This document shows, one piece after another, positions 11,667 to 20,939 of a stretch of DNA of 64,000 bases. The notes under the pieces are model-generated. The model was not told where the DNA came from. It was given only the letters and a program-made list of their open reading frames with translations, and ran no database searches. The position numbers and the translations under genes were made by a program. Position 1 is the first letter of the stretch; every line of letters begins with the position of its first letter. The stretch is from NCBI RefSeq assembly GCF_003449015.1, contig NZ_QRGD01000003.1, positions 1 through 64,000 of the forward strand, given 5' to 3'. This DNA comes from Aureibaculum luteum (GTDB lineage Bacteria; Bacteroidota; Bacteroidia; Flavobacteriales; Flavobacteriaceae).

Positions 11667-12812
11667 ATGATTCATAGACTAAATAAAAGTATCGCGGTTA
11701 AGTTTATTTCATTTTTGGTTTTGATACTATTTGTTAACGCTTGTAGTTCAAAAAAAATAGTAAGTTCAAATGACATAAAACCAATACAAGAAGACAAACC
11801 AATGAATATTATACTTATGATTGGTGATGGCATGGGGGTATCGCAAGTTTCGAGTAGTTACTTTGCAAAAGAAACGGAACCCAACTTTAGTCGTTTTAAT
11901 ACTATTGGATTAATAAAAACATCTTCAGGTAGCCATTTAATTACTGATTCGGCCGCTGGTGCTACAGCATTTTCTGCAGGCCAAAAAACCTATAATGGTG
12001 CAATAGGTGTAGATATAGATACCCTTTCTGCTGAAAACATTGTAGATTATCTTTCTAATAAAGAATATGCAACGGGTTTAATTGCTACTTCTTCAATAAC
12101 TCATGCAACTCCTGCAAGCTTTTTTGCTCATGTTAAATCTAGAGGCATGGCCGAAGAAATAGCTAGTGAATTACCAAGTTCACAAGTAGATTTTTTTGCT
12201 GCTGGTGGTAAACAATTTTTCTTTAATCGAAAAGATGACACATCACTTTATAATGAATTTGTAACTAATGGATTTACCATTGACACCTTAAGTCTTGAAA
12301 AGAGTCAAGCTCTATCAAAATCTAAAAAATATGGTTTTTTATTGTCAAAGGATGCGATGCCGAGAATGGATCAAGGAAGAGGAGATTTTTTATTAAATGC
12401 AACCGAATTAGCACTTTCTTATCTAAATAAAAATGAAGTAAAAGGTAAAAATGGGTTTTTCCTAATGGTTGAGGGTTCACAAATAGATTGGGGTGGACAC
12501 GCAAATGATTCTGAATATATTAAAAAAGAAGTCTTAGATTTTGACAAAACTATTGGACGTGTTTTAGATTTTGCTGAAGCTGACGGTAATACCCTAGTTA
12601 TTATAACTGCAGATCATGAAACTGGTGGCTATACCCTGGCATCTGATGATGGAGATTATAACAAAATAAAAGGTTCTTTTTCTACGGGAGGGCATTCTGC
12701 TACCTTAATTCCAGTATTTGCATATGGCCCAGGTGAAGCCAATTTTTCTGGAATTTATGAAAATACGGCAATATTTGATAAAATTATCGAAATGGTTAAT
12801 GAACAAAAATAG
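11667..12812 (+). CDS. alkaline phosphatase (PhoA superfamily) lipoprotein
   Basis: Phosphomonoesterase of the PhoA fold, exported to the periplasm or surface. A lipoprotein signal ends at NACSS. Motifs in order are IGDGMG (metal Asp), DSAAGATAFSAG (nucleophile Ser after Asp), HATPASFFAH, EGSQIDWGGHANDS and TADHETGG, followed by the late GGHS. These are the two-zinc and magnesium ligands of the family. The 381-residue length is on the short side for PhoA relatives. It is the first chromosomal gene next to the island attachment site and converges on the SCO gene 8 bp away. No Pho box was recognised. Confidence 0.93.
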   Translation: MIHRLNKSIAVKFISFLVLILFVNACSSKKIVSSNDIKPIQEDKPMNIILMIGDGMGVSQVSSSYFAKETEPNFSRFNTIGLIKTSSGSHLITDSAAGATAFSAGQKTYNGAIGVDIDTLSAENIVDYLSNKEYATGLIATSSITHATPASFFAHVKSRGMAEEIASELPSSQVDFFAAGGKQFFFNRKDDTSLYNEFVTNGFTIDTLSLEKSQALSKSKKYGFLLSKDAMPRMDQGRGDFLLNATELALSYLNKNEVKGKNGFFLMVEGSQIDWGGHANDSEYIKKEVLDFDKTIGRVLDFAEADGNTLVIITADHETGGYTLASDDGDYNKIKGSFSTGGHSATLIPVFAYGPGEANFSGIYENTAIFDKIIEMVNEQK

Positions 12813-12820
12813 TAGCTGAA

Positions 12821-13501
12821 TTAGTTCAAATGACTATTTTCATCTTTTAAAGCTTTTACATCTGTAACTAACTGAGCTAAAGAAGCTCTATTTAGTCCAT
12901 TGTAAATGCCTCTAATATGTTTGTTTTTATCAATTAAAAGAAAATTTTCTGAATGTAAAAAATCATCTATGTTTTTAGGTACTCCTAAATCATTTTCAAC
13001 AAAATATTGATTTCTGCCAAGGTTATAAATAGCTGTTTTGTCACCAGTAACTAAATGCCATTTATTATCTATGACACCATGTTTTTCTGCATATTTTTTT
13101 AGCTCAGCCACAGAATCAATAGTTGGTGTAACTGAATGCGATAAAAATAATATTTCTTTATCTTGCTTAAACTCTTCTTGCAGTTTGACCATATTACTTG
13201 TCATTTTTGGACAAATACCTGGACAACTTGTAAAAAAGAAATCTGCAATGTAAATTTTATTATCAAAAGTTTTTTGTGTAACGGTATCTCCCAATTGATT
13301 GATTAATTCAAAATCGGGTATTTTATGAAATGCTTGCTCTTCATCTGTATTAGGTGTTAACCAGTTCGGTGTAAATGATTCCTCATTATAATAAGGTAAA
13401 TAGTCTACCCTACTCGTTTCAGTTACTTTTATGTTTTCTTTTTTCACCTCGTCTTTACAACCAATCGTGATAACAAGAAAAAAGATCATTAAATATTTCA
13501 T
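12821..13501 (-). CDS. SCO1/SenC copper chaperone-like protein
   Basis: Thioredoxin-fold lipoprotein (MIFFLVITIGC signal). It carries the copper-binding Cys pair in TSCPGICPKM and the distal His in HSENFLLIDK, both hallmarks of SCO proteins that deliver copper to the CuA centre of cytochrome oxidase or act as periplasmic redox sensors. At 226 residues it is normal length. It is the last gene of the minus-strand run YHYH - MORN - SCO, 36 bp after the MORN gene, and so probably under the ECF promoter at 14,969. That context points to copper or redox work tied to the surface regulon. Confidence 0.9.
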   Translation of the reverse strand: MKYLMIFFLVITIGCKDEVKKENIKVTETSRVDYLPYYNEESFTPNWLTPNTDEEQAFHKIPDFELINQLGDTVTQKTFDNKIYIADFFFTSCPGICPKMTSNMVKLQEEFKQDKEILFLSHSVTPTIDSVAELKKYAEKHGVIDNKWHLVTGDKTAIYNLGRNQYFVENDLGVPKNIDDFLHSENFLLIDKNKHIRGIYNGLNRASLAQLVTDVKALKDENSHLN

Positions 13502-13537
13502 GTATGCATATATTATATTGAAGAATCTAACCTTGCA

Positions 13538-14185
13538 TTATTCTTTCTTTTTAGCGTCACCAAAAATGGATTCGCTTCTGGCATCTTTTATGACAACCTC
13601 ATCTTCTAATTGGTAACATAAATTTGCTTTTTTCATTCCAAAAATTCGGCCATTTTTGGCTTCATAATTGACATATATTTTACCGTTTTTAAGCCAAGCT
13701 TGTTGCATTCCCTCTTCCTTCCCATTAGTATAGTGCATTTGCTTTGCCAATTGACCAGAATCATACCAACGCTTTTCGACATCATGCAATTTTCCATTTT
13801 CATAATTTGATTCTGAAGCCAATACCCCATTTTTCCACCAAGCCCTATAACTACCTACCAATTTATTTTTACGGTAATTAGATTCTACCTTTAATTGACC
13901 GCTTGGAAACCAAATTTTAGCAACACCTTCTTTTTTCCCATTCAAAAACCCAACCTTTTGTTCTAAATTTCCATTCGAACCATAGCTTACTAAAAAACCA
14001 TTAAAAAGATTATTATTGTAATACCAATTACCTTCATTACCATTAAGGACCAGTTTATTTTTAGTCACTTCTATGTCTGAAATCGTTTCAACTTCAACTA
14101 GTGAACTGACATTTTCTTCTGAAGTGCTTTTACAACTCAAAATAAATATTGAAAAAAGTACTAAAAATAAACTAGTGCTTTTCAT
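13538..14185 (-). CDS. MORN-repeat lipoprotein
   Basis: Start set at MKSTSLF (cat at 14183-14185). That gives a lipoprotein signal ending in ILSC and leaves one base after the upstream YHYH stop, whereas the longer frame from 14248 would overlap it. The body has about five repeats of the pattern G..EG..K.W...G.L....Y..GKL, matching MORN-like/YwqK-type repeats: GKKEGVAKIWFPSGQLK, KNKLVGSYRAWWKNGVLA and so on. Such proteins are often labelled toxin-antitoxin YwqK, but nothing here supports that role. Likely a surface scaffold co-expressed with the YHYH protein. Confidence 0.82.
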   Translation of the reverse strand: MKSTSLFLVLFSIFILSCKSTSEENVSSLVEVETISDIEVTKNKLVLNGNEGNWYYNNNLFNGFLVSYGSNGNLEQKVGFLNGKKEGVAKIWFPSGQLKVESNYRKNKLVGSYRAWWKNGVLASESNYENGKLHDVEKRWYDSGQLAKQMHYTNGKEEGMQQAWLKNGKIYVNYEAKNGRIFGMKKANLCYQLEDEVVIKDARSESIFGDAKKKE

Positions 14186-14186
14186 A

Positions 14187-14942
14187 TTAATATCCTTGAT
14201 AAGGTCCTGCAAATAAGATATAAGACTCTGTATTTGAATAGATTTCATTTATGATATGATAGTGATATTCCTCCACACCTTCTGAATATTGAGTCGTAGT
14301 GGTATGACCTCCTGAACTATCTAAATCTGTTGGATAGGTACCCGTAGAATTACATTTTCTTCCATAAATAAATACACCATCTAACAAGATACCATTCAGC
14401 TTATCATCGTCATTACTAAATGCTATCGGTTCTAAGTGATAATGATAAACACCTGGTCCAATATGTGCACCCGTCCAATCTAAACTGGCTGCTGCTTGAC
14501 TTAAAGGACCATTTCCTTCTGAATCATTAAAAATTGAAGCTCCACTTACAGCAATTCCAACAGTATTCAATTGCGTTGCAACTGTATTACCTGTTAAATT
14601 GGGAGTAGCATCTACCGTTATGGTAGTAGCATTATTATTACTTGACATTATTGACGGCGTAACTTCTACACCCTCCTCTTCCATATAAAGCGAATTACCT
14701 TCTCCCCAATAAACAGATTTATGATTTGGTAATCCGGTAGTTTCAATGGTAATAGTTGTACCTCCATCAGATAAATAAGCACTAACTGCATCAGTATTAA
14801 ATGCAGCAAATTCAGCCGGTAATTCTGTTAAAGAAATATCTGAAGATTCCCCATTGATATCATCGTCGCTATTACAAGCAATAAAGTTGATAGATACTAT
14901 TAAAATTATAAATGTTATGCTATTCTTAAAAAATCTTCTCAT
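14187..14942 (-). CDS. YHYH-domain lipoprotein
   Basis: A 251-residue lipoprotein (signal ending NFIAC, then NSDDDINGE). The core holds the YHYH signature in GPGVYHYHLEP and a second EEYHYHI near the C-terminus. Other pieces typical of the family are DGVFIYGR and DSSGGHTTT. The biochemical function of YHYH proteins is not established; the His/Tyr clusters suggest metal binding. The gene is preceded by the ECF promoter at 14,969-14,998, 26 bp upstream, and heads the YHYH-MORN-SCO unit. Confidence 0.88.
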   Translation of the reverse strand: MRRFFKNSITFIILIVSINFIACNSDDDINGESSDISLTELPAEFAAFNTDAVSAYLSDGGTTITIETTGLPNHKSVYWGEGNSLYMEEEGVEVTPSIMSSNNNATTITVDATPNLTGNTVATQLNTVGIAVSGASIFNDSEGNGPLSQAAASLDWTGAHIGPGVYHYHLEPIAFSNDDDKLNGILLDGVFIYGRKCNSTGTYPTDLDSSGGHTTTTQYSEGVEEYHYHIINEIYSNTESYILFAGPYQGY

Positions 14943-14968
14943 TTGTTATATTTTAGTATTGTTTTCTT

Positions 14969-14998
14969 TTTAGATGTGTTTTCTTAAATAAACTTGCG
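14969..14998 (-). promoter_or_regulatory. ECF-sigma promoter of YHYH-MORN-SCO unit
   Basis: On the minus strand CGCAAGT, then 15 bp, then CATCTAAA (seen on the plus strand as TTTAGATG-N15-ACTTGCG). The same two boxes with exactly 15 bp between CAAGT and CATCTAAA occur at 16,704, 19,412 and 20,331. The -10 box ends 26 bp before the ATG. Confidence 0.85.
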
Positions 14999-15010
14999 GT
15001 AAGGATAAAA

Positions 15011-16144
15011 TTAATTTTGATTAACTGGTCGTTTTCTATTCCCTGGTCCTTGTTTATCATCTTTGTCAGCACTTTCAAGTTCCTCTTTCGTTATAAAACC
15101 ATCTTTATCAGAATCAACCTGATCAAATTGTTCCAACAATGGTCCTTTAACCTCTTCTTTCGAAAGTTTTTCGTCATTATTTACGTCCATTTGTTTAACT
15201 ATTTGCGTAGCACTTGGACGCTTTCCTTGCCCAACTGGTTGTTGGCCTCTTGGTGGACCTTGATGTTCTTCTTCTGTCATTTCGCCCATTAAACAACGAC
15301 TCACATAAGGAAAATCAGTAGTAACCATGTACATATAATTTCCATTTATTGTAATACCATTACATTCATCTAAATCACCAACACCTTCAACATATTCAAA
15401 ATCGGAAGTATAAGTTCCATCATGCTTATCTGCAACAGAAACATCTATTGAATTCATAGGGTTTGTGTAGGTACAATCTTCACCTTCACGCTCTCCAACT
15501 AACAATTTATAACTTGGCTTATAAGCATTTGTTTTAGAAAAGTAAATAGGAAACCCATCTTTTGCAAAACCAACATGTACCAAATCTTCACCAGTATCAA
15601 AATCTTCGATAACAGATGTTGGGGCACCATGATAATGATAGGCACCAGTAGGTTGAACATGTGCATGGTTAAAGTCAAGACCTAAACTAATTAAATCTTG
15701 AAAAGCCTCAACCCGATAGCTTTCTCCTGTATCACAAACTACCACCTCTGCAGTTCCTGGTTCAAATTTTACGCCATTTAAGGCTATTCCCGGCTCCCTA
15801 ACCCATGTAGGTTCGCCAATATATTTAGGACTTAAAGGAAAAGTATAGGTTTTGTTTTGTGCTGCAATTGTATTTGGATTCCCTTTATTGGGAAACTGAC
15901 CCGTTTTATGATTCGGCAAAGAATTGGTTACCATTTTACGTTCATTAGCGGTTACCGTAACTATAGTTTTTGTACCAAAAATTTCATCTTCTAAATCATA
16001 TGATCCAAAATAATCATTATGAATATGAGGTACCTTTCCAACAGAAACAGTTTCAGTTGTAGCTGAAAATGTGTTTTTCTGAGAACTACAACTTACTATA
16101 ACACCTGCAAGAATAATAGCAACTACACTATAAATTTTTCCCAT
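15011..16144 (-). CDS. YHYH lipoprotein with C-terminal EF-hand pair
   Basis: A 377-residue lipoprotein (signal ending VSCSS). The YHYH domain occupies about residues 30-290, with TGAYHYHGAPTSV and a Cys-containing C-part. A Pro/Gln/Gly linker follows, then two EF-hands, DVNNDEKLSKEEV and DSDKDGFITKEEL, before a KR-rich tail. It thus fuses the putative metal-binding YHYH module with calcium-binding loops. It begins 15 bp after the four-EF-hand protein and shares its ECF promoter at 16,704. A calcium-dependent surface or matrix role is inference. Confidence 0.87.
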   Translation of the reverse strand: MGKIYSVVAIILAGVIVSCSSQKNTFSATTETVSVGKVPHIHNDYFGSYDLEDEIFGTKTIVTVTANERKMVTNSLPNHKTGQFPNKGNPNTIAAQNKTYTFPLSPKYIGEPTWVREPGIALNGVKFEPGTAEVVVCDTGESYRVEAFQDLISLGLDFNHAHVQPTGAYHYHGAPTSVIEDFDTGEDLVHVGFAKDGFPIYFSKTNAYKPSYKLLVGEREGEDCTYTNPMNSIDVSVADKHDGTYTSDFEYVEGVGDLDECNGITINGNYMYMVTTDFPYVSRCLMGEMTEEEHQGPPRGQQPVGQGKRPSATQIVKQMDVNNDEKLSKEEVKGPLLEQFDQVDSDKDGFITKEELESADKDDKQGPGNRKRPVNQN

Positions 16145-16159
16145 TTGTATAATTATGTA

Positions 16160-16678
16160 TTATTGTTTCTTTCTTTTTTTAGACTTCTTTTTATCTGATT
16201 TAGATAAAAAATATTTTAATTCTTCTAAATCAATTTCATTATCGTCATTCGTATCGATTTCTTCAAAATTATTAGTCAGCAAAAGTTTTTCTTTTGCAGC
16301 AATTTCAAGTGCATTTAATTTACCATCAGCGTTATCGTCAACTTCTTTCATTATTCTCACTGCTGATTCCCCTTTAGGTCCATTACCATTTAAAGATGCT
16401 TCTAATTCTGATAAATCAATATATTTATCATCATTAGTATCTATTAAATCAAAATCTTGAGAAATTTTACCTCTTTGATCCTTTGAAGCTTCATCAACAT
16501 CTATCTTATCATCATTATTTGTATCCAATTTTGATAGAATTTGAGATGCATCAGGTTTTCCTCCATTATTCTGCCCACCTCGTTTACCTCTTTGCCCACC
16601 TGGACCTTGAGCAAAAATACTGGCACATAACAGTAAAGTGAAAATGGTGATTGTCATTTTTAAATTATAATTTCTCAT
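16160..16678 (-). CDS. secreted four-EF-hand protein
   Basis: A 172-residue protein with signal peptide (MTITIFTLLLCASIFAQG) followed by a Gly/Arg/Gln linker and four calcium loops: DTNNDDKIDVDEA, DTNDDKYIDLSEL, DDNADGKLNALEI and DTNDDNEIDLEEL. All keep the Dx[DN]xDG-like ligand spacing, though several replace the central Gly. The C-terminus is strongly basic (KKKSKKRKKQ). First gene of a two-gene unit behind the ECF promoter at 16,704. Likely a periplasmic or extracellular calcium binder. Confidence 0.9.
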   Translation of the reverse strand: MRNYNLKMTITIFTLLLCASIFAQGPGGQRGKRGGQNNGGKPDASQILSKLDTNNDDKIDVDEASKDQRGKISQDFDLIDTNDDKYIDLSELEASLNGNGPKGESAVRIMKEVDDNADGKLNALEIAAKEKLLLTNNFEEIDTNDDNEIDLEELKYFLSKSDKKKSKKRKKQ

Positions 16679-16703
16679 CGTTTTATATTCGCTAGTTTAT
16701 TTA

Positions 16704-16733
16704 TTTAGATGTGTTTCATCAAAAATACTTGTG
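16704..16733 (-). promoter_or_regulatory. ECF-sigma promoter of EF-hand/YHYH-EF unit
   Basis: Plus-strand TTTAGATG (16704-16711), 15 bp, ACTTGTG (16727-16733), i.e. CACAAGT-N15-CATCTAAA on the coding strand. The -10 box lies 25 bp before the ATG, matching the other three sites. Confidence 0.85.
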
Positions 16734-16771
16734 CTAAATTACATTTTTCTTCAAATAGGTTAATAGCTCCG

Positions 16772-17521
16772 TTAATTATCTAATTCCCTATTTAAATTAA
16801 TAGCTATGGTTTTTGTTTTATCCATTAAACTTTTAGCGATTGCTAATTGGACTTCTGTTTGCAAAAGTCTATCAATTAAAGTATTCTGAAATTCTCTATT
16901 ATTTAATAATTTATCATAATTAGATTGTTTTGAAAGGGCCTGAATTTTATTGTCTTTAGAATATCGCCCTGAAAGAATTTCAATTAATGATATATGTGCT
17001 TCTATCAGTGGTTGTAAACGATTAATAACAATATTTTGAATTTTTGTTTCCTGATTTTCAAAATTATCTAGTTCACTCGGATAGGCGGCAATTAATTCCT
17101 TCAACAAACCACTTTCAATAAACTCAAATTTGTTTGTGCTATTCACTGAGTTTATGGAAGCATTATGCAACTTTGTTATTTTATAATCGACACTAATAAT
17201 TCCTTCTTTTACGTCATCCGTAAGTTCTTGATATTGCAGCCCCATATAACTCATCGTGTTTTTAATTACTTTGACATTTTCAGTATATCTAGTAATTGAT
17301 GAATCTAAAAGTACTAAGTTTGAATTAAGCTCTTCATTTAAGCTTTCATATATTTTTAATTCTACAATCCTATTATTTTTAATTTCATTGAGATTATTTA
17401 TCTTCCAAGCAATTAATATCCCAATAACAATCAGTAAAATTTCTCCTAATGCATAGACGAAATAACTTTTAATTTTCCCTGAAATCAATAAATTTTTTCT
17501 GATTTTTCTAAATAACCTCAT
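16772..17521 (-). CDS. DUF6090 membrane-anchored protein
   Basis: A 249-residue protein with the DUF6090 N-terminus: a basic FRKIRKNLL segment, then one membrane helix (GEILLIVIGILIAWKINN, about 28-45) followed by a mostly helical periplasmic part. Function unknown. A paralogue with the same N-terminal pattern is at 34,954. No ECF promoter precedes it and a terminator separates it from the CotH gene upstream, so it may be transcribed alone. Confidence 0.8.
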   Translation of the reverse strand: MRLFRKIRKNLLISGKIKSYFVYALGEILLIVIGILIAWKINNLNEIKNNRIVELKIYESLNEELNSNLVLLDSSITRYTENVKVIKNTMSYMGLQYQELTDDVKEGIISVDYKITKLHNASINSVNSTNKFEFIESGLLKELIAAYPSELDNFENQETKIQNIVINRLQPLIEAHISLIEILSGRYSKDNKIQALSKQSNYDKLLNNREFQNTLIDRLLQTEVQLAIAKSLMDKTKTIAINLNRELDN

Positions 17522-17563
17522 CGCTAAAATTTTTTATATCATTTTAATAATATTGTTTTTATA

Positions 17564-17590
17564 AAAAAACTTCGTGATTACTCACGAAGC
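17564..17590 (-). terminator. terminator of EF-hand/CotH operon
   Basis: Stem CTTCGTGA (17570-17577) and TCACGAAG (17582-17589) with loop TTAC. On the minus strand it is followed by seven Ts (plus-strand A run 17563-17569). It ends the transcript carrying the CotH gene. Confidence 0.85.
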
Positions 17591-17625
17591 TTTTAGCAAA
17601 AACTAACTCAAAATGAAATTTTATA

Positions 17626-19053
17626 TTAATTATTTAAATAACTACTAACCGCTGATGCTCTTTGTGAAACATGTGAATTTAACTCGTTTACGGCGGTCTG
17701 AAAATCAGAACTACTATTAAGGAAGGTATAACCCGTTACTTCTGTAGTTGCAAAAGGCTCAATTAATGCAGAATAGGTTCCATATAAAGATTGAATTGTA
17801 CTCGTACTAAATGCCCCCTCTACAACTTCTTGCACATAAGTGTCATATTTATCCTTATAAACATCATCTGCATATAAATACCCAATTAATGGCCATTCTG
17901 AAGTATTTAACCCTGAAAAATCTAAAGGTAATGCACCACCTTGTTTACCGGTTTGCAATGCTTCATTATTATCCCAAGGAATCCATGTTAATTTATTAGT
18001 TTCTGGATTATTATATAAAAAATAATTATGCGTCATTCTCCCATAAGTGTCCCAATTTTGTACCACCGTATTTACGGCTAAATATTTAAGAAACACATCG
18101 GTATCTAAAACAGCATCCAAATCTGATCTCCAAGCCTCAGCATCTGCGGTTCTTGAACCATCATTCAGAATGTCTAATAAACTTTTTACATCAGAAAAAT
18201 CAGCTTCGTCTTCATTATTTTTCTTTACATATTCATCTTCATCATATGAACCTGCCGCAAAACTTGCTGCGTCACCATCTGGTTTATATAAATTACCATC
18301 ATCATCTGAAAACTGATCATCTAAAACAGTGTCATCAACTTCTTCAACCATCGTATAGAGCCCAAAATACTGTGGTCCATCACCATGATCTACATAAACC
18401 GTATAAAATGCCGTGTGAGATGCCACTAAACCAGCATTTCTAAATACATCGGTAGCTACCTTTTCACGCAACATTGATTTATCATCGAAATTATTTTTAA
18501 GGCTTAATTTTTTAAAGCCATAGAAACGTTGATTATCGATTTGTGGATAATCATCTTCATATTCGTCAAAATCAAGTTTAAAAGATAGTTTTAAAATACC
18601 TGATTGCCAACTCGTTTGCAAACTTGAATTCCCTTTGAATCGCACACCTACTCTATACCATTCTAGTCCATTATAAAACACTTCTGCTGGGACAAAAATT
18701 GGATTCTCATCCACATCAGATGAAACCCCTCCTGGTCTATTGCCCCCACCAAAAGTGCCATAAAGACTTGTCATATCATCTAACATACTTTGCCATCGTG
18801 TTTCTGAAATTACAATATCAATTCGTTTTACAGCTTCATCTTCAAATACTTCATCAAAGTTTGGGTCTACATCTTTGGTATGTGTCTCTGTTGTCCAATC
18901 CGTTGCAATAAAATCGGTATCGTCAACTTCAACTATTTCTTCCTCATCTTCAGTAATGGTATCATCATCACTGCAAGAATTAAAGGATACGATTATAGCA
19001 CTAAAAATTAATGCCATAAAAAGCATATTGACATTCTGTTTAATTTTCTTCAT
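17626..19053 (-). CDS. CotH-kinase-family lipoprotein
   Basis: A 475-residue lipoprotein (signal ending FNSCSDDD) with an extremely acidic N-terminal tail. The CotH kinase-like domain shows GVRFKGNSSLQ, KLSFKLDFDEY, NNFDDKSMLREKVATDVFR, GLYTMVEEVDD, WDTYGRMTHNY and the metal-binding WIPWDNNEAL. CotH of Bacillus phosphorylates coat proteins; secreted bacterial homologues are presumed kinases or phospho-ligand modifiers. It follows the small EF-hand gene by 43 bp in one transcript from the ECF promoter at 19,412. Neighbouring EF-hand and YHYH proteins are plausible substrates; that is inference. Confidence 0.88.
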   Translation of the reverse strand: MKKIKQNVNMLFMALIFSAIIVSFNSCSDDDTITEDEEEIVEVDDTDFIATDWTTETHTKDVDPNFDEVFEDEAVKRIDIVISETRWQSMLDDMTSLYGTFGGGNRPGGVSSDVDENPIFVPAEVFYNGLEWYRVGVRFKGNSSLQTSWQSGILKLSFKLDFDEYEDDYPQIDNQRFYGFKKLSLKNNFDDKSMLREKVATDVFRNAGLVASHTAFYTVYVDHGDGPQYFGLYTMVEEVDDTVLDDQFSDDDGNLYKPDGDAASFAAGSYDEDEYVKKNNEDEADFSDVKSLLDILNDGSRTADAEAWRSDLDAVLDTDVFLKYLAVNTVVQNWDTYGRMTHNYFLYNNPETNKLTWIPWDNNEALQTGKQGGALPLDFSGLNTSEWPLIGYLYADDVYKDKYDTYVQEVVEGAFSTSTIQSLYGTYSALIEPFATTEVTGYTFLNSSSDFQTAVNELNSHVSQRASAVSSYLNN

Positions 19054-19096
19054 CTGTCTGATTTGTTAATATTTAAATTCTTTTTATTTCTTTAAA

Positions 19097-19384
19097 TTAT
19101 TTTCCTTCTCTTCTTTTTGGTTTTGGTGCTTTTTCAAATTCTTTTTCAGAAATAAAACCATCCTCATCAGTATCTATAGTCGTAAATTCATCTTTTAAAG
19201 GTCCTTTAACTTCATCTTTAGAAAGTTTACCGTCTTCGTTGGCATCCATCTGTTTAATCAGTTCCGTAAATGTTGGCGGCTTCTTTCTTTCCTGTTTGTT
19301 ACCTGATTGCCCAAACGAGCTCGTAGAAATAAATAATGTTAATCCAAAAACTATTACTATTGTTTTAATTGTGTTACTTTTCAT
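19097..19384 (-). CDS. small secreted EF-hand protein
   Basis: A 95-residue protein: signal peptide (IVIVFGLTLFISTSSFGQ), Lys/Pro-rich linker, then two EF-hands, DANEDGKLSKDEV and DTDEDGFISEKEF, and a basic tail. It strongly resembles the C-terminal EF-hand pair of the YHYH protein at 15,011, sharing the segment KLSKxEVKGPL between the loops. This suggests duplication within the locus. Heads the EF-hand/CotH unit behind the ECF promoter at 19,412. Confidence 0.88.
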   Translation of the reverse strand: MKSNTIKTIVIVFGLTLFISTSSFGQSGNKQERKKPPTFTELIKQMDANEDGKLSKDEVKGPLKDEFTTIDTDEDGFISEKEFEKAPKPKRREGK

Positions 19385-19411
19385 ATGTATTATTTTTAAA
19401 TGTTATATAAC

Positions 19412-19441
19412 TTTAGATGTTTAATTCAAAAATAACTTGTG
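19412..19441 (-). promoter_or_regulatory. ECF-sigma promoter of EF-hand/CotH unit
   Basis: Plus-strand TTTAGATG (19412-19419), 15 bp, ACTTGTG (19435-19441). The -10 box is 27 bp before the EF-hand ATG. Same boxes and spacing as the three sister sites. Confidence 0.85.
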
Positions 19442-19462
19442 GACTCAAATGTTAAAAAAATG

Positions 19463-19493
19463 CAAAAAAAAGACCCTCAGTATTTTGAGGGTC
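19463..19493 (-). terminator. terminator of sigma/anti-sigma/sensor operon
   Basis: Stem GACCCTCA (19472-19479) and TGAGGGTC (19486-19493), 6-nt loop, followed on the minus strand by a run of eight Ts. It lies 35 bp after the stop of the Spy-like gene. Confidence 0.88.
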
Positions 19494-19527
19494 CTTGAAA
19501 CTATTTTGTAAAAAAATTACGGTACTA

Positions 19528-19998
19528 TTAATCATTTTTAGATGGTGGAGGAGGCATTTGATTTGGATTACTACCTCCATGTCGTGCATTTTTAATAATA
19601 TCATTAAATCGTTTTTTTTGCTCATCATTGCATAATTCATGGATGGCTCTTAAATTATAAAACACCTCAGTTTCTAATAGATACTGTTTCATACCTATAA
19701 TCGTTGTAACGGAATCAATTTCCTGCTTATTTAATGAGTCTTTTGAAATTTTACTAAATAGAACGTCTTTTTGTTTTTTTATGTCATCAGAAATAGTGTT
19801 CATTTTTTTACGATGTGCATTGCTTATCGTTTTAAATTGATCCATTTGAGATTGATCAAATTTTAATTGTTTCACTATAAAATCATCTGGCCCTTTTGGT
19901 CCTTTTGCACCAGGTCTTCCTAAATAATTAAATAAAAAGAATCCATTGACTACGATTAAAAATGCGAGTAGAATGTATAAGAGTAAATTTTTCTTCAT
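19528..19998 (-). CDS. Spy/CnrX-like periplasmic sensor protein
   Basis: A 156-residue protein with one N-terminal membrane anchor (LLLYILLAFLIVVNGFFLFNYL) and a helical periplasmic domain: QLKFDQSQMDQFKTISNAHRKKM and a later ETEVFYNLRAIHELCNDEQKKRFNDII, the LTxxQ-type hairpin of Spy/CpxP/CnrX proteins. The tail is Pro/Met-rich (NPNQMPPPPS). It starts 2 bp after the anti-sigma gene. In CnrYXH-type systems the equivalent protein senses metal and releases the sigma factor. His and Met residues could bind metal, but the ligand is unknown. Confidence 0.85.
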   Translation of the reverse strand: MKKNLLLYILLAFLIVVNGFFLFNYLGRPGAKGPKGPDDFIVKQLKFDQSQMDQFKTISNAHRKKMNTISDDIKKQKDVLFSKISKDSLNKQEIDSVTTIIGMKQYLLETEVFYNLRAIHELCNDEQKKRFNDIIKNARHGGSNPNQMPPPPSKND

Positions 19999-20000
19999 GA

Positions 20001-20312
20001 TTAATTTAATAACGAGGTTGCGGTATTTGTTGATAATCCATACGTTTCAGCAAACTGACTAACATTTTCATCATATTTTGTTTCTTGTAACTTCGTAAAA
20101 GCGACTATATTTAAAACAATTATACAGACCAAAGTAGCCAATTGTAATTTAGGTGTAAACCAAGACCAAATTGTTGGCTGTTCTTCCTTCTCAGCGAACA
20201 ATCTATTCATGGTTTTACCTTTTAAAAAAGGAGACACATTAACCGTTTCAATAGTGTCCATCGCCTCTAGCGTACGCTCTATTTTATGTTGTATGTTCTT
20301 ATTTGTTTCCAT
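20001..20312 (-). CDS. small membrane anti-sigma-like protein
   Basis: A 103-residue protein: about 65 cytoplasmic residues, one membrane helix (LATLVCIIVLNIVAF, about 66-80) and a short periplasmic tail. Its position directly after an ECF sigma gene and before a periplasmic sensor, with 2 bp to the latter, is that of anti-sigma factors such as CnrY. The sequence itself carries no recognised ZAS motif. A start at MDTIETVN (residue 18) is less likely because the ECF promoter lies 18 bp before the annotated ATG. Confidence 0.75.
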   Translation of the reverse strand: METNKNIQHKIERTLEAMDTIETVNVSPFLKGKTMNRLFAEKEEQPTIWSWFTPKLQLATLVCIIVLNIVAFTKLQETKYDENVSQFAETYGLSTNTATSLLN

Positions 20313-20330
20313 GACTTTTAATTCTACTAA

Positions 20331-20360
20331 TTTAGATGCTATAATTTATAAAAACTTGCG
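20331..20360 (-). promoter_or_regulatory. ECF-sigma promoter of anti-sigma/sensor unit
   Basis: Plus-strand TTTAGATG (20331-20338), 15 bp, ACTTGCG (20354-20360). It fills the 48-bp gap between the sigma and anti-sigma genes, and the -35 box abuts the sigma stop codon. This would let the sigma factor drive its own inhibitor. Confidence 0.85.
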
Positions 20361-20939
20361 TCATTTATTGTTTTTATAATAAATTTCTAATATTTCTTGT
20401 AATTTTTTCTTTGCTCGAAAGAGTAAAGACTCAACAGAGGATATACTTTTTTCTGTAATATCGCTAATTTCTTGATAGCTCAACCCATCCACTTTGCTTA
20501 GTGTAAATACCACCTTCTGAGCTTCTGGCAATTGATTTATAGCTTTAAAAAGTGTTTCACTTTTCTCCCTGTTTTCCAACAATACTCCCGGATGGTTCAT
20601 TTCCGTAAAATAGTTGGTACTATCAGCAGGAATATCATTTCCTATAATAGATTGTAAAAATGCAAAGCGTTTTTTAGTACTTTTTTTTCTAATGAATTCC
20701 AATGATTTATTGGTTGCTATTCGGTAAATCCAAGTAGATAATTTAGAATTTCCCTTAAATCTACTTATGGAATTAAAAACCTCAACAAAAACCTCTTGTG
20801 CAATATCTTCAGCATCTTCTTTATTAGGAACAAACGAGATACAAGTTGAAAACACTTTTTGCTGATAGTCATCAATTAATTGACTAAAAGCATGCTGTTT
20901 GCCTTGTTGTAATTCTTTTATAAACTGCTCCTCTTGCAA
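20361..20939 (-). CDS. ECF RNA polymerase sigma factor
   Basis: A 192-residue ECF (group IV sigma-70) factor. Region 2 spans DDYQQKVFSTCISFVPNKED and DIAQEVFVEVF to STWIYRIATNKSLEF. Region 4 spans LPEAQKVVFTLSKVDGLSYQEI and SVESLLFRAKKKL. A degenerate version of the regulon promoter precedes its own start: ACTTG at 20977-20981 with TAGA at 20957-20960, spacing one base shorter than the others. Weak autoregulation is therefore possible. It is the first gene of the sigma/anti-sigma/sensor operon and the most likely reader of the CAAGT-N15-CATCTAAA promoters. Confidence 0.93.
   Translation of the reverse strand: MQEEQFIKELQQGKQHAFSQLIDDYQQKVFSTCISFVPNKEDAEDIAQEVFVEVFNSISRFKGNSKLSTWIYRIATNKSLEFIRKKSTKKRFAFLQSIIGNDIPADSTNYFTEMNHPGVLLENREKSETLFKAINQLPEAQKVVFTLSKVDGLSYQEISDITEKSISSVESLLFRAKKKLQEILEIYYKNNK

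Follow-up and report, generated by a model that had tools for sequence, protein, structure and literature searches.

In Cupriavidus metallidurans, the proteins CnrX, CnrY and CnrH form a periplasmic switch for cobalt and nickel, as described in the available excerpts of PMC7689651, PMC4598750 and PMC7406223. Here we describe a similarly built locus of Aureibaculum luteum (Flavobacteriaceae). It lies in a stretch of 64,000 nucleotides (NCBI RefSeq assembly GCF_003449015.1, contig NZ_QRGD01000003.1, positions 1 to 64,000), hereafter the window, in which a gene for an extracytoplasmic function (ECF) sigma factor is found next to genes for EF-hand, YHYH, CotH and SCO proteins. As in CnrYXH, an ECF sigma factor is combined with a short putative anti-sigma factor and a membrane-anchored periplasmic sensor, here encoded in the order sigma, anti-sigma, sensor, and the sensor model matches CnrX best. 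In contrast to CnrYXH, the anti-sigma factor matches no solved anti-sigma factor, and the predicted targets are EF-hand, YHYH, CotH and SCO proteins instead of a resistance-nodulation-division efflux pump. We conclude, with a probability of roughly 0.88, that the cluster is the regulon of an ECF sigma factor with its own promoter; its build is CnrYXH-like and its target set unusual.

The sigma factor finds its best matches among solved structures in sigma-E, a sigma-H and SigW, CnrH being a weaker one (E 2.9e-10). Promoter boxes of RpoE and SigW differ from those in the window, and the window sigma, unlike factors of the RpoE/SigW type, has a CnrX-like partner. The ECF-type promoter motif SM6 from Flavobacterium psychrophilum, another case of a CGT-type -10 box, stands for a class of ECF promoters in the same family, and its regulon, as far as the excerpts of PMC9723704 describe it, includes an ECF/anti-sigma pair as well; the window box, however, is CATCTAAA, and the targets in these excerpts are not alike. 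Regarding the targets, genes for CotH, polyphosphate polymerase and DUF4956 are grouped beside Gram-positive Pel operons (excerpts of PMC7112168), and in a Clostridium perfringens locus, genes for VTC-domain proteins and CotH are listed close to one for a sigma factor (excerpts of PMC2879425). Some sigma-positive loci in our comparison resemble these groups in having VTC, DUF4956, DUF2490 and CotH genes in one motif-led unit (locus L204), whereas the window cluster holds CotH alone of the group; Pel genes were not searched for. Literature searches, made on titles and abstracts and with current ECF group listings outside the comparison, found no description of this regulon. Within these limits, its family-wide promoter code and target set seem to be new.

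The sequence-only reading of this DNA had proposed that the adjacent ECF sigma factor reads a two-box promoter, CAAGT-N15-CATCTAAA, present at four sites on the minus strand. Searching the window for CAAGT-N(13-17)-CATCTAAA returned exactly these four sites, all of them with N15, against an average of 0.02 matches in the shuffled window. Their -10 boxes lie 26, 25, 27 and 18 bp upstream of an ATG (sites at 14969, 16704, 19412 and 20331, respectively), in agreement with the 18-27 bp given before. The four units led by the sites had been named correctly, but in reversed order relative to the coordinates: the site at 14969 precedes the YHYH/MORN/SCO unit and the site at 20331 the anti-sigma/sensor unit. 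A DUF6090-like gene inside the cluster has no site. In the whole genome (5.10 Mb), exact N15 copies are confined to the four window sites. With N14-N16 allowed, nine exact matches were obtained, compared with one for the reversed control. One of the five N14/N16 matches (contig C12, N14) lies 23 bp upstream of a gene for an EF-hand protein that is unlinked to the cluster. Downstream of the remaining four, the script, whose gene calls are simple longest-ORF choices, found no start of an open reading frame (ORF). The extended pattern CRCAAGTT-N14-CATCTAAA with up to two mismatches has 11 matches in the genome and 16 in the reversed control, and matches with none or one mismatch are the four window sites only.

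Comparison of orthologous loci was based on 38 of them. Thirty-one (65-96% identity) come from a first set of 80, from which 49 at 50% identity or less were left out; seven were fetched later, five chosen for having no or one exact site and two for having several. Two further loci were set aside, L206 and L199, the latter apparently identical in contig to L094, and omission of L202, where the sensor is unlabelled, leaves 37 loci for sites in front of the anti-sigma gene. Such a site, upstream of the sensor and with N15, is present in 37 of 37 loci: 20 match at 13 of 13 positions, 13 at 12 and four at 11, and 13 of 1900 random windows from the same loci reach 11. Relaxed matches in the 38 loci number 135 at spacing 15 versus 4-17 at each of the spacings 9-14 and 16-21. 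For distant ECF homologs (45 loci), the corresponding numbers are eight at spacing 15 and 3-9 at the others.

Conservation extends beyond the search pattern. Among 81 exact sites, C is found at position -2 in 77, a purine at -1 in all 81, T directly after CAAGT in 77 and a purine preceding CATCTAAA in 71; in the spacer, conservation is lower (mean identity 0.47 for the last ten positions of 33 anti-sigma sites). Gene-assigned N15 sites mostly lie 5-40 bp from the start codon (80 of 95), and a relaxed site (spacing 14-16) is paired with a gene start within 110 bp in 96 cases in the ortholog loci, as judged by our gene caller. As a part of the whole ECF-regulon explanation, and with the confidence given to it above, we propose that the promoter consists of a -35 box (A/G)CAAGTTT and a -10 box (A/G)CATCTAAA, CAAGT and CATCTAAA being 15 bp apart.

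Sigma orthologs (64-99% identity, E <=1e-80) were detected in 48 of 397 family genomes, that of A. luteum included, and the next matches are at most 50% identical. The closest named relative is Aureibaculum flavum, with a 96% identical sigma factor. Since only 4 of 17 genomes of the genus have the gene, several of the remaining ones being incomplete, its distribution is patchy. The exact N15 pattern occurs in 145 copies in the 48 sigma-positive genomes, where the reversed control has 24; 43 of these genomes have at least one exact site and 36 at least two. Among the 349 sigma-negative genomes, the pattern is found in 58 and two sites in five.

We regard as the strongest evidence the genomes which carry the YHYH-MORN-SCO operon and lack the sigma gene. 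Twenty loci of this kind were hand-picked from the stronger YHYH matches, and none of them has an exact site within 7.8 kb; in the 300 bp upstream of their YHYH genes, the best match reaches 7-10 of 13 positions. They include one locus from the same genus, whose YHYH protein is 82% identical. By comparison, sites matching at 11 or more positions precede 19 of the 28 YHYH genes of sigma-positive loci. Because the operon occurs without the exact motif in these sigma-less genomes, the boxes appear to belong to the sigma factor and not to the target genes. The sigma-less genome G115 has a 50%-identical sigma elsewhere, and locus L216 contains a gene weakly similar to sigma. Presence of the operon both with and without this sigma factor offers a natural experiment in regulation.

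Less similar sigma factors are also accompanied by comparable boxes. A 50% identical sigma from a Bacteroidales metagenome-assembled genome (L093) belongs to the same trio of genes and has CAAGT-N15-CATCAAAC before the anti-sigma gene. In L097 (42% identity), CAAGT-N15-TGTCTAAA lies just upstream of sigma, and in L095 (44%) and L098 (39%), CGTCTAAA without CAAGT precedes the anti-sigma gene. Since distant homologs carry these boxes, it is plausible that CATCTAAA derives from, or varies, the CGT type of ECF -10 box.

Sites unlinked to the sigma locus may point to further members of the regulon. Among the matches listed, 13 of 24 such sites in sigma-positive genomes precede plausible exported or metal-type genes: four for YHYH proteins, three for sulfatases and one each for MbnP, a MauG-type cytochrome, Cthe_2159, a Porph_ging protein, a TonB receptor and a type IX-secreted protein of the CHU_C type. 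These assignments rest on Pfam in ten cases, on a match to the window YHYH protein in one, and on resemblance to the scanned sulfatase in two. Most unlinked sites are on other contigs, and their true linkage is uncertain in fragmented assemblies. A sharp promoter code is at hand for an alternative sigma factor of 48 of the 397 sampled genomes, and it can be used to list regulon members in them.

Taken by comparison, the boxes and their spacing are borne out, as are their presence alongside the sigma gene and the recurrence of the same putative targets; comparison also gives good support to the adjacent sigma factor as the putative reader of the sites. The proposal of the sequence-only reading is favoured by co-occurrence across 397 genomes, by the 37 of 37 loci, by the preference for spacing 15 and by the sigma-less operons. 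Direct recognition by this sigma factor, like the role of the anti-sigma factor, the nature of the signal and a surface function of the target proteins, is our inference.

The sigma factor (192 amino acids) has only regions 2 and 4, recognised by Pfam at residues 21-87 (r2) and 130-180 (r4_2), both above cut-offs, as is NCBIfam TIGR02937. Its own locus contains the two-box promoter before the anti-sigma gene, both in the window and in 37 of 37 loci. The trio of sigma, anti-sigma and sensor genes recurs in the ortholog loci, the sensor being labelled in 37 of 38. The anti-sigma protein has no Pfam match, and its profile found no credible match among solved structures, any solved anti-sigma factor included; by reading, it consists of a short N-terminal part and one hydrophobic segment. 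As the sensor model resembles CnrX best, the switch resembles CnrYXH, and by analogy the CnrX/CnrY/CnrH logic would apply here, possibly with metal sensing. The sigma factor would be held by the anti-sigma factor with its single transmembrane segment, which in turn would be coupled to the sensor. On detecting its signal in the periplasm, for which a metal or the state of the envelope is most likely, the sensor would free the sigma factor, and RNA polymerase with this sigma would start at CAAGT-N15-CATCTAAA promoters. These would drive the anti-sigma/sensor pair as feedback, two EF-hand units (one with CotH, the other with YHYH-EF) and the YHYH-MORN-SCO unit.

It could be argued that a separate activator, for example a response regulator of the LytTR type, binds to the boxes, which would then not be an ECF promoter. 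Contig C12 encodes a LytTR pair of histidine kinase and response regulator, and relatives of both partners are indeed neighbours of the cassette in seven of the 20 sigma-less loci (L207, L210, L213, L214, L215, L223 and L225) and in one of the 38 sigma-positive ones (L083), the LytTR domain being Pfam-confirmed for the C12 pair only. In A. luteum itself, the C12 pair (L010:5125-6897) stands beside the second set of EF-hand genes. Regulators of different kinds may thus have controlled the cassette, the LytTR-related pair being a possible alternative one. The motif, however, tracks sigma and not LytTR, and sigma-less LytTR loci are without the exact motif. The two boxes are, moreover, unlike each other, spacing of 15 bp is preferred and the distance to gene starts is promoter-like, which makes an activator site very improbable. 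Marginally less probable still is that another ECF sigma factor of the genome reads the sites and the adjacent one is incidental. Such candidates exist: a 41%-identical ECF sigma is encoded on contig C1, and a second, weakly similar ECF gene is found near many ortholog loci. Yet across the 397 genomes presence of the motif follows the orthogroup with 64-99% identity, and sites precede the anti-sigma gene in 37 of 37 loci and the sigma gene itself in 12 of 37. We retain the adjacent ECF sigma factor as the probable reader of the sites.

The nature of the sensor is less settled, and a Spy/CpxP-type sensor of envelope stress, or a chaperone-like one, in place of a metal sensor is a serious contender, with chances not far below even. 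Spy is the nearest solved structure by sequence profile (E 2e-4), and among structural matches of the sensor model, Spy, CpxP, NccX and ZraP are among those next after CnrX. The model itself (predicted local distance difference test, pLDDT, 83) consists of one N-terminal helix, read as a membrane anchor, and a four-helix part, and ranks 1-12 of its Foldseek search are all CnrX (probability 1.00; template modelling score 0.73-0.83 by target and 0.54-0.59 by query). In favour of a metal sensor, three residues are frequent in 31 sensor sequences, H62 (31/31), C123 (27/31) and M66 (24/31), which might form a soft-metal site. The targets, furthermore, include SCO1 here and MbnP and a MauG-type protein elsewhere, which makes copper a candidate signal.

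Several observations weigh against the proposed CnrYXH-like sigma regulon. With respect to the sensor, Foldseek E-values for CnrX are weak (0.014-0.06, no match below 0.001) and CnrX was not found by sequence profile search. The essential Met123, a ligand in CnrX, was not located in the sensor, the CnrX ligand positions not being mappable onto it. With respect to the promoter, our gene caller placed no gene start in the 110 bp after 43 of the 139 relaxed sites of the ortholog loci, some of them being exact sites before genes whose starts it misplaced. Five of the 48 sigma-positive genomes are without an exact N15 site; relaxed copies are present at the loci of four of them (G125, G249, G286 and G433), and for the fifth (G245) in L094, apparently on the same contig. 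Nine of 28 sigma-positive YHYH genes score at most 9 of 13. Among the matches listed, a plausible target is missing for 11 of the 24 unlinked sites in sigma-positive genomes, one of which stands before an apparent ribosomal protein gene. The window sigma gene is without a recognisable promoter copy. Finally, related genomes are not independent samples, and the Fisher value for co-occurrence overstates significance.

Concerning the sigma gene of the window, the sequence-only reading had placed a weaker copy of the promoter before it. CAAGT is present there, but the -10 box matches at 0 of 8 positions with N15 and at 4 of 8 with N14, and A. flavum (L064) lacks even CAAGT; this candidate was rejected. 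Since the window sigma gene has no such promoter, feedback here would act on the anti-sigma factor and the sensor, not on sigma. Elsewhere, 12 of 37 ortholog loci have a site matching at 12-13 of 13 positions within 75 bp upstream of sigma. In L067 and L073, exact sites lie farther away, about 90-140 bp upstream. In L089, a locus outside the 37, an exact site is located 24 bp in front of the matched sigma start. By our choice of start codons, 32 of 38 sigma genes, that of the window (start codon at 20937-20939) included, start with TTG, which may limit translation of sigma. The second, weakly similar ECF sigma gene is located on the opposite strand downstream of the SCO gene, without an assigned motif (L065, L066, L068, L072, L073, L078, L081, L084, L085, L088, L089, L090 and others).

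We also examined the cargo of the predicted regulon. The set comprises 148 proteins from the window and orthologous loci, 55 of them site-led and 93 following within 120 bp. Pfam families represented are EF-hand (37), YHYH (33), SCO1 and MORN_2 (21 each), CotH (12), YCF48/BNR (11), VTC (4) and DUF4956 (3). Because export signals prevail (a hydrophobic N-terminus in 141 of 148 by a crude hydrophobicity rule, and a lipobox-like cysteine in 81 by a similarly simple one), the targets are predicted to be surface proteins. No metal efflux pump was found among the window targets or among the 25 most frequent of the 40 Pfam families in this set. YHYH is predicted to be a metal-dependent hydrolase in a survey of jumbo phages (excerpts of PMC7824862). 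The structure model of the YHYH protein has a mean pLDDT of 40.5, and its profile gave no credible match among solved structures. Given the cargo families, the grouping of CotH, polyphosphate polymerase and DUF4956 elsewhere and the hydrolase prediction for YHYH, a surface layer or matrix handling calcium, phosphate and copper is a reasonable but unproven interpretation.

A more elaborate scenario, which we consider rather unlikely as a whole, would have a CnrX-type metal sensor wired through a dedicated sigma factor to a surface layer that handles calcium and phosphate. Its components would be EF-hand proteins, CotH possibly phosphorylating them, VTC of the polyphosphate polymerase type, YHYH metal proteins and a copper chaperone. 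In relatives the cassette would be under a LytTR system, the regulator having been exchanged wholesale. Independently of this scenario, with YHYH, EF-hand, CotH, MORN_2, VTC and DUF4956 grouped together with SCO1 under one putative signal, their common function may become approachable through the trigger of the sensor.

Table 1. Genes and sequence elements of the predicted sigma regulon, in window coordinates
Feature	Position	Strand	Basis
ECF sigma factor, 192 amino acids (aa), TTG start	20361..20939	-	Pfam Sigma70_r2, r4_2; orthologs with 64-99% identity in 48/397 family genomes
Putative promoter CAAGT-N15-CATCTAAA, anti-sigma/sensor unit	20331..20358	-	11-13/13 match in 37/37 tested orthologous loci
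Probable anti-sigma factor, short, one transmembrane segment, 103 aa	20001..20312	-	Conserved next to sigma; transmembrane segment and role predicted
Membrane-anchored periplasmic sensor, CnrX/Spy-like, 156 aa	19528..19998	-	Sub-cut-off LTXXQ and Metal_resist; predicted structure
Terminator-like hairpin, gap between sensor and EF-hand genes	19469..19496	-	Statistically weak: 2 such sites in region vs 3.1 in shuffles
Putative promoter CAAGT-N15-CATCTAAA, EF-hand/CotH unit	19412..19439	-	Pattern search
EF-hand protein, 95 aa, probably exported	19097..19384	-	Pfam EF-hand families
CotH kinase-family protein, 475 aa, lipoprotein-like	17626..19053	-	Pfam CotH, E 3e-74
DUF6090-like membrane protein within cluster, candidate regulon member only	16772..17521	-	Below Pfam cut-off; no motif upstream
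Putative promoter CAAGT-N15-CATCTAAA, EF-hand/YHYH-EF unit	16704..16731	-	Pattern search
EF-hand protein, 172 aa, probably exported	16160..16678	-	Pfam EF-hand families
YHYH protein, 377 aa, EF hands at the C-terminus	15011..16144	-	Pfam YHYH, E 3e-51, plus EF-hand
Putative promoter CAAGT-N15-CATCTAAA, YHYH/MORN/SCO unit	14969..14996	-	Pattern search
YHYH protein, 251 aa, lipoprotein-like	14187..14942	-	Pfam YHYH, E 2.5e-7; alignment
MORN_2-repeat protein, 215 aa, lipoprotein-like	13538..14185	-	Pfam MORN_2, E 1e-12
SCO1/SenC-family protein, 226 aa, lipoprotein-like	12821..13501	-	Pfam SCO1-SenC, E 5e-25

Features of the cluster are listed in Table 1. NCBIfam matches of its EF-hand proteins to LanM and XopAW are far under cut-offs and were treated as generic EF-hand similarity. 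A terminator-like stretch after CotH was noticed by eye and is absent from the computed list of terminators. Convergent with the SCO gene is a gene for alkaline phosphatase (11667-12812 of the window). At the same position in A. flavum (L064) there is an ORF of 381 aa, equal in length to the window alkaline phosphatase.

An exported-looking protein of about 210 aa is encoded next to YHYH genes in L076 (L076:15489-16109), L214, L215, L218, L219 and L221. Pfam assigns it to DUF6702 in L076; for the other loci, this assignment is made by resemblance. The second pair of EF-hand genes of A. luteum (L010:8226-9156, contig C12) lies near transporter, Lcl_C and DUF6515 genes. The putative N14 promoter copy of C12 is identical in G007 and was found in none of the other eight same-genus genomes searched, so that it is present in two of ten genomes.

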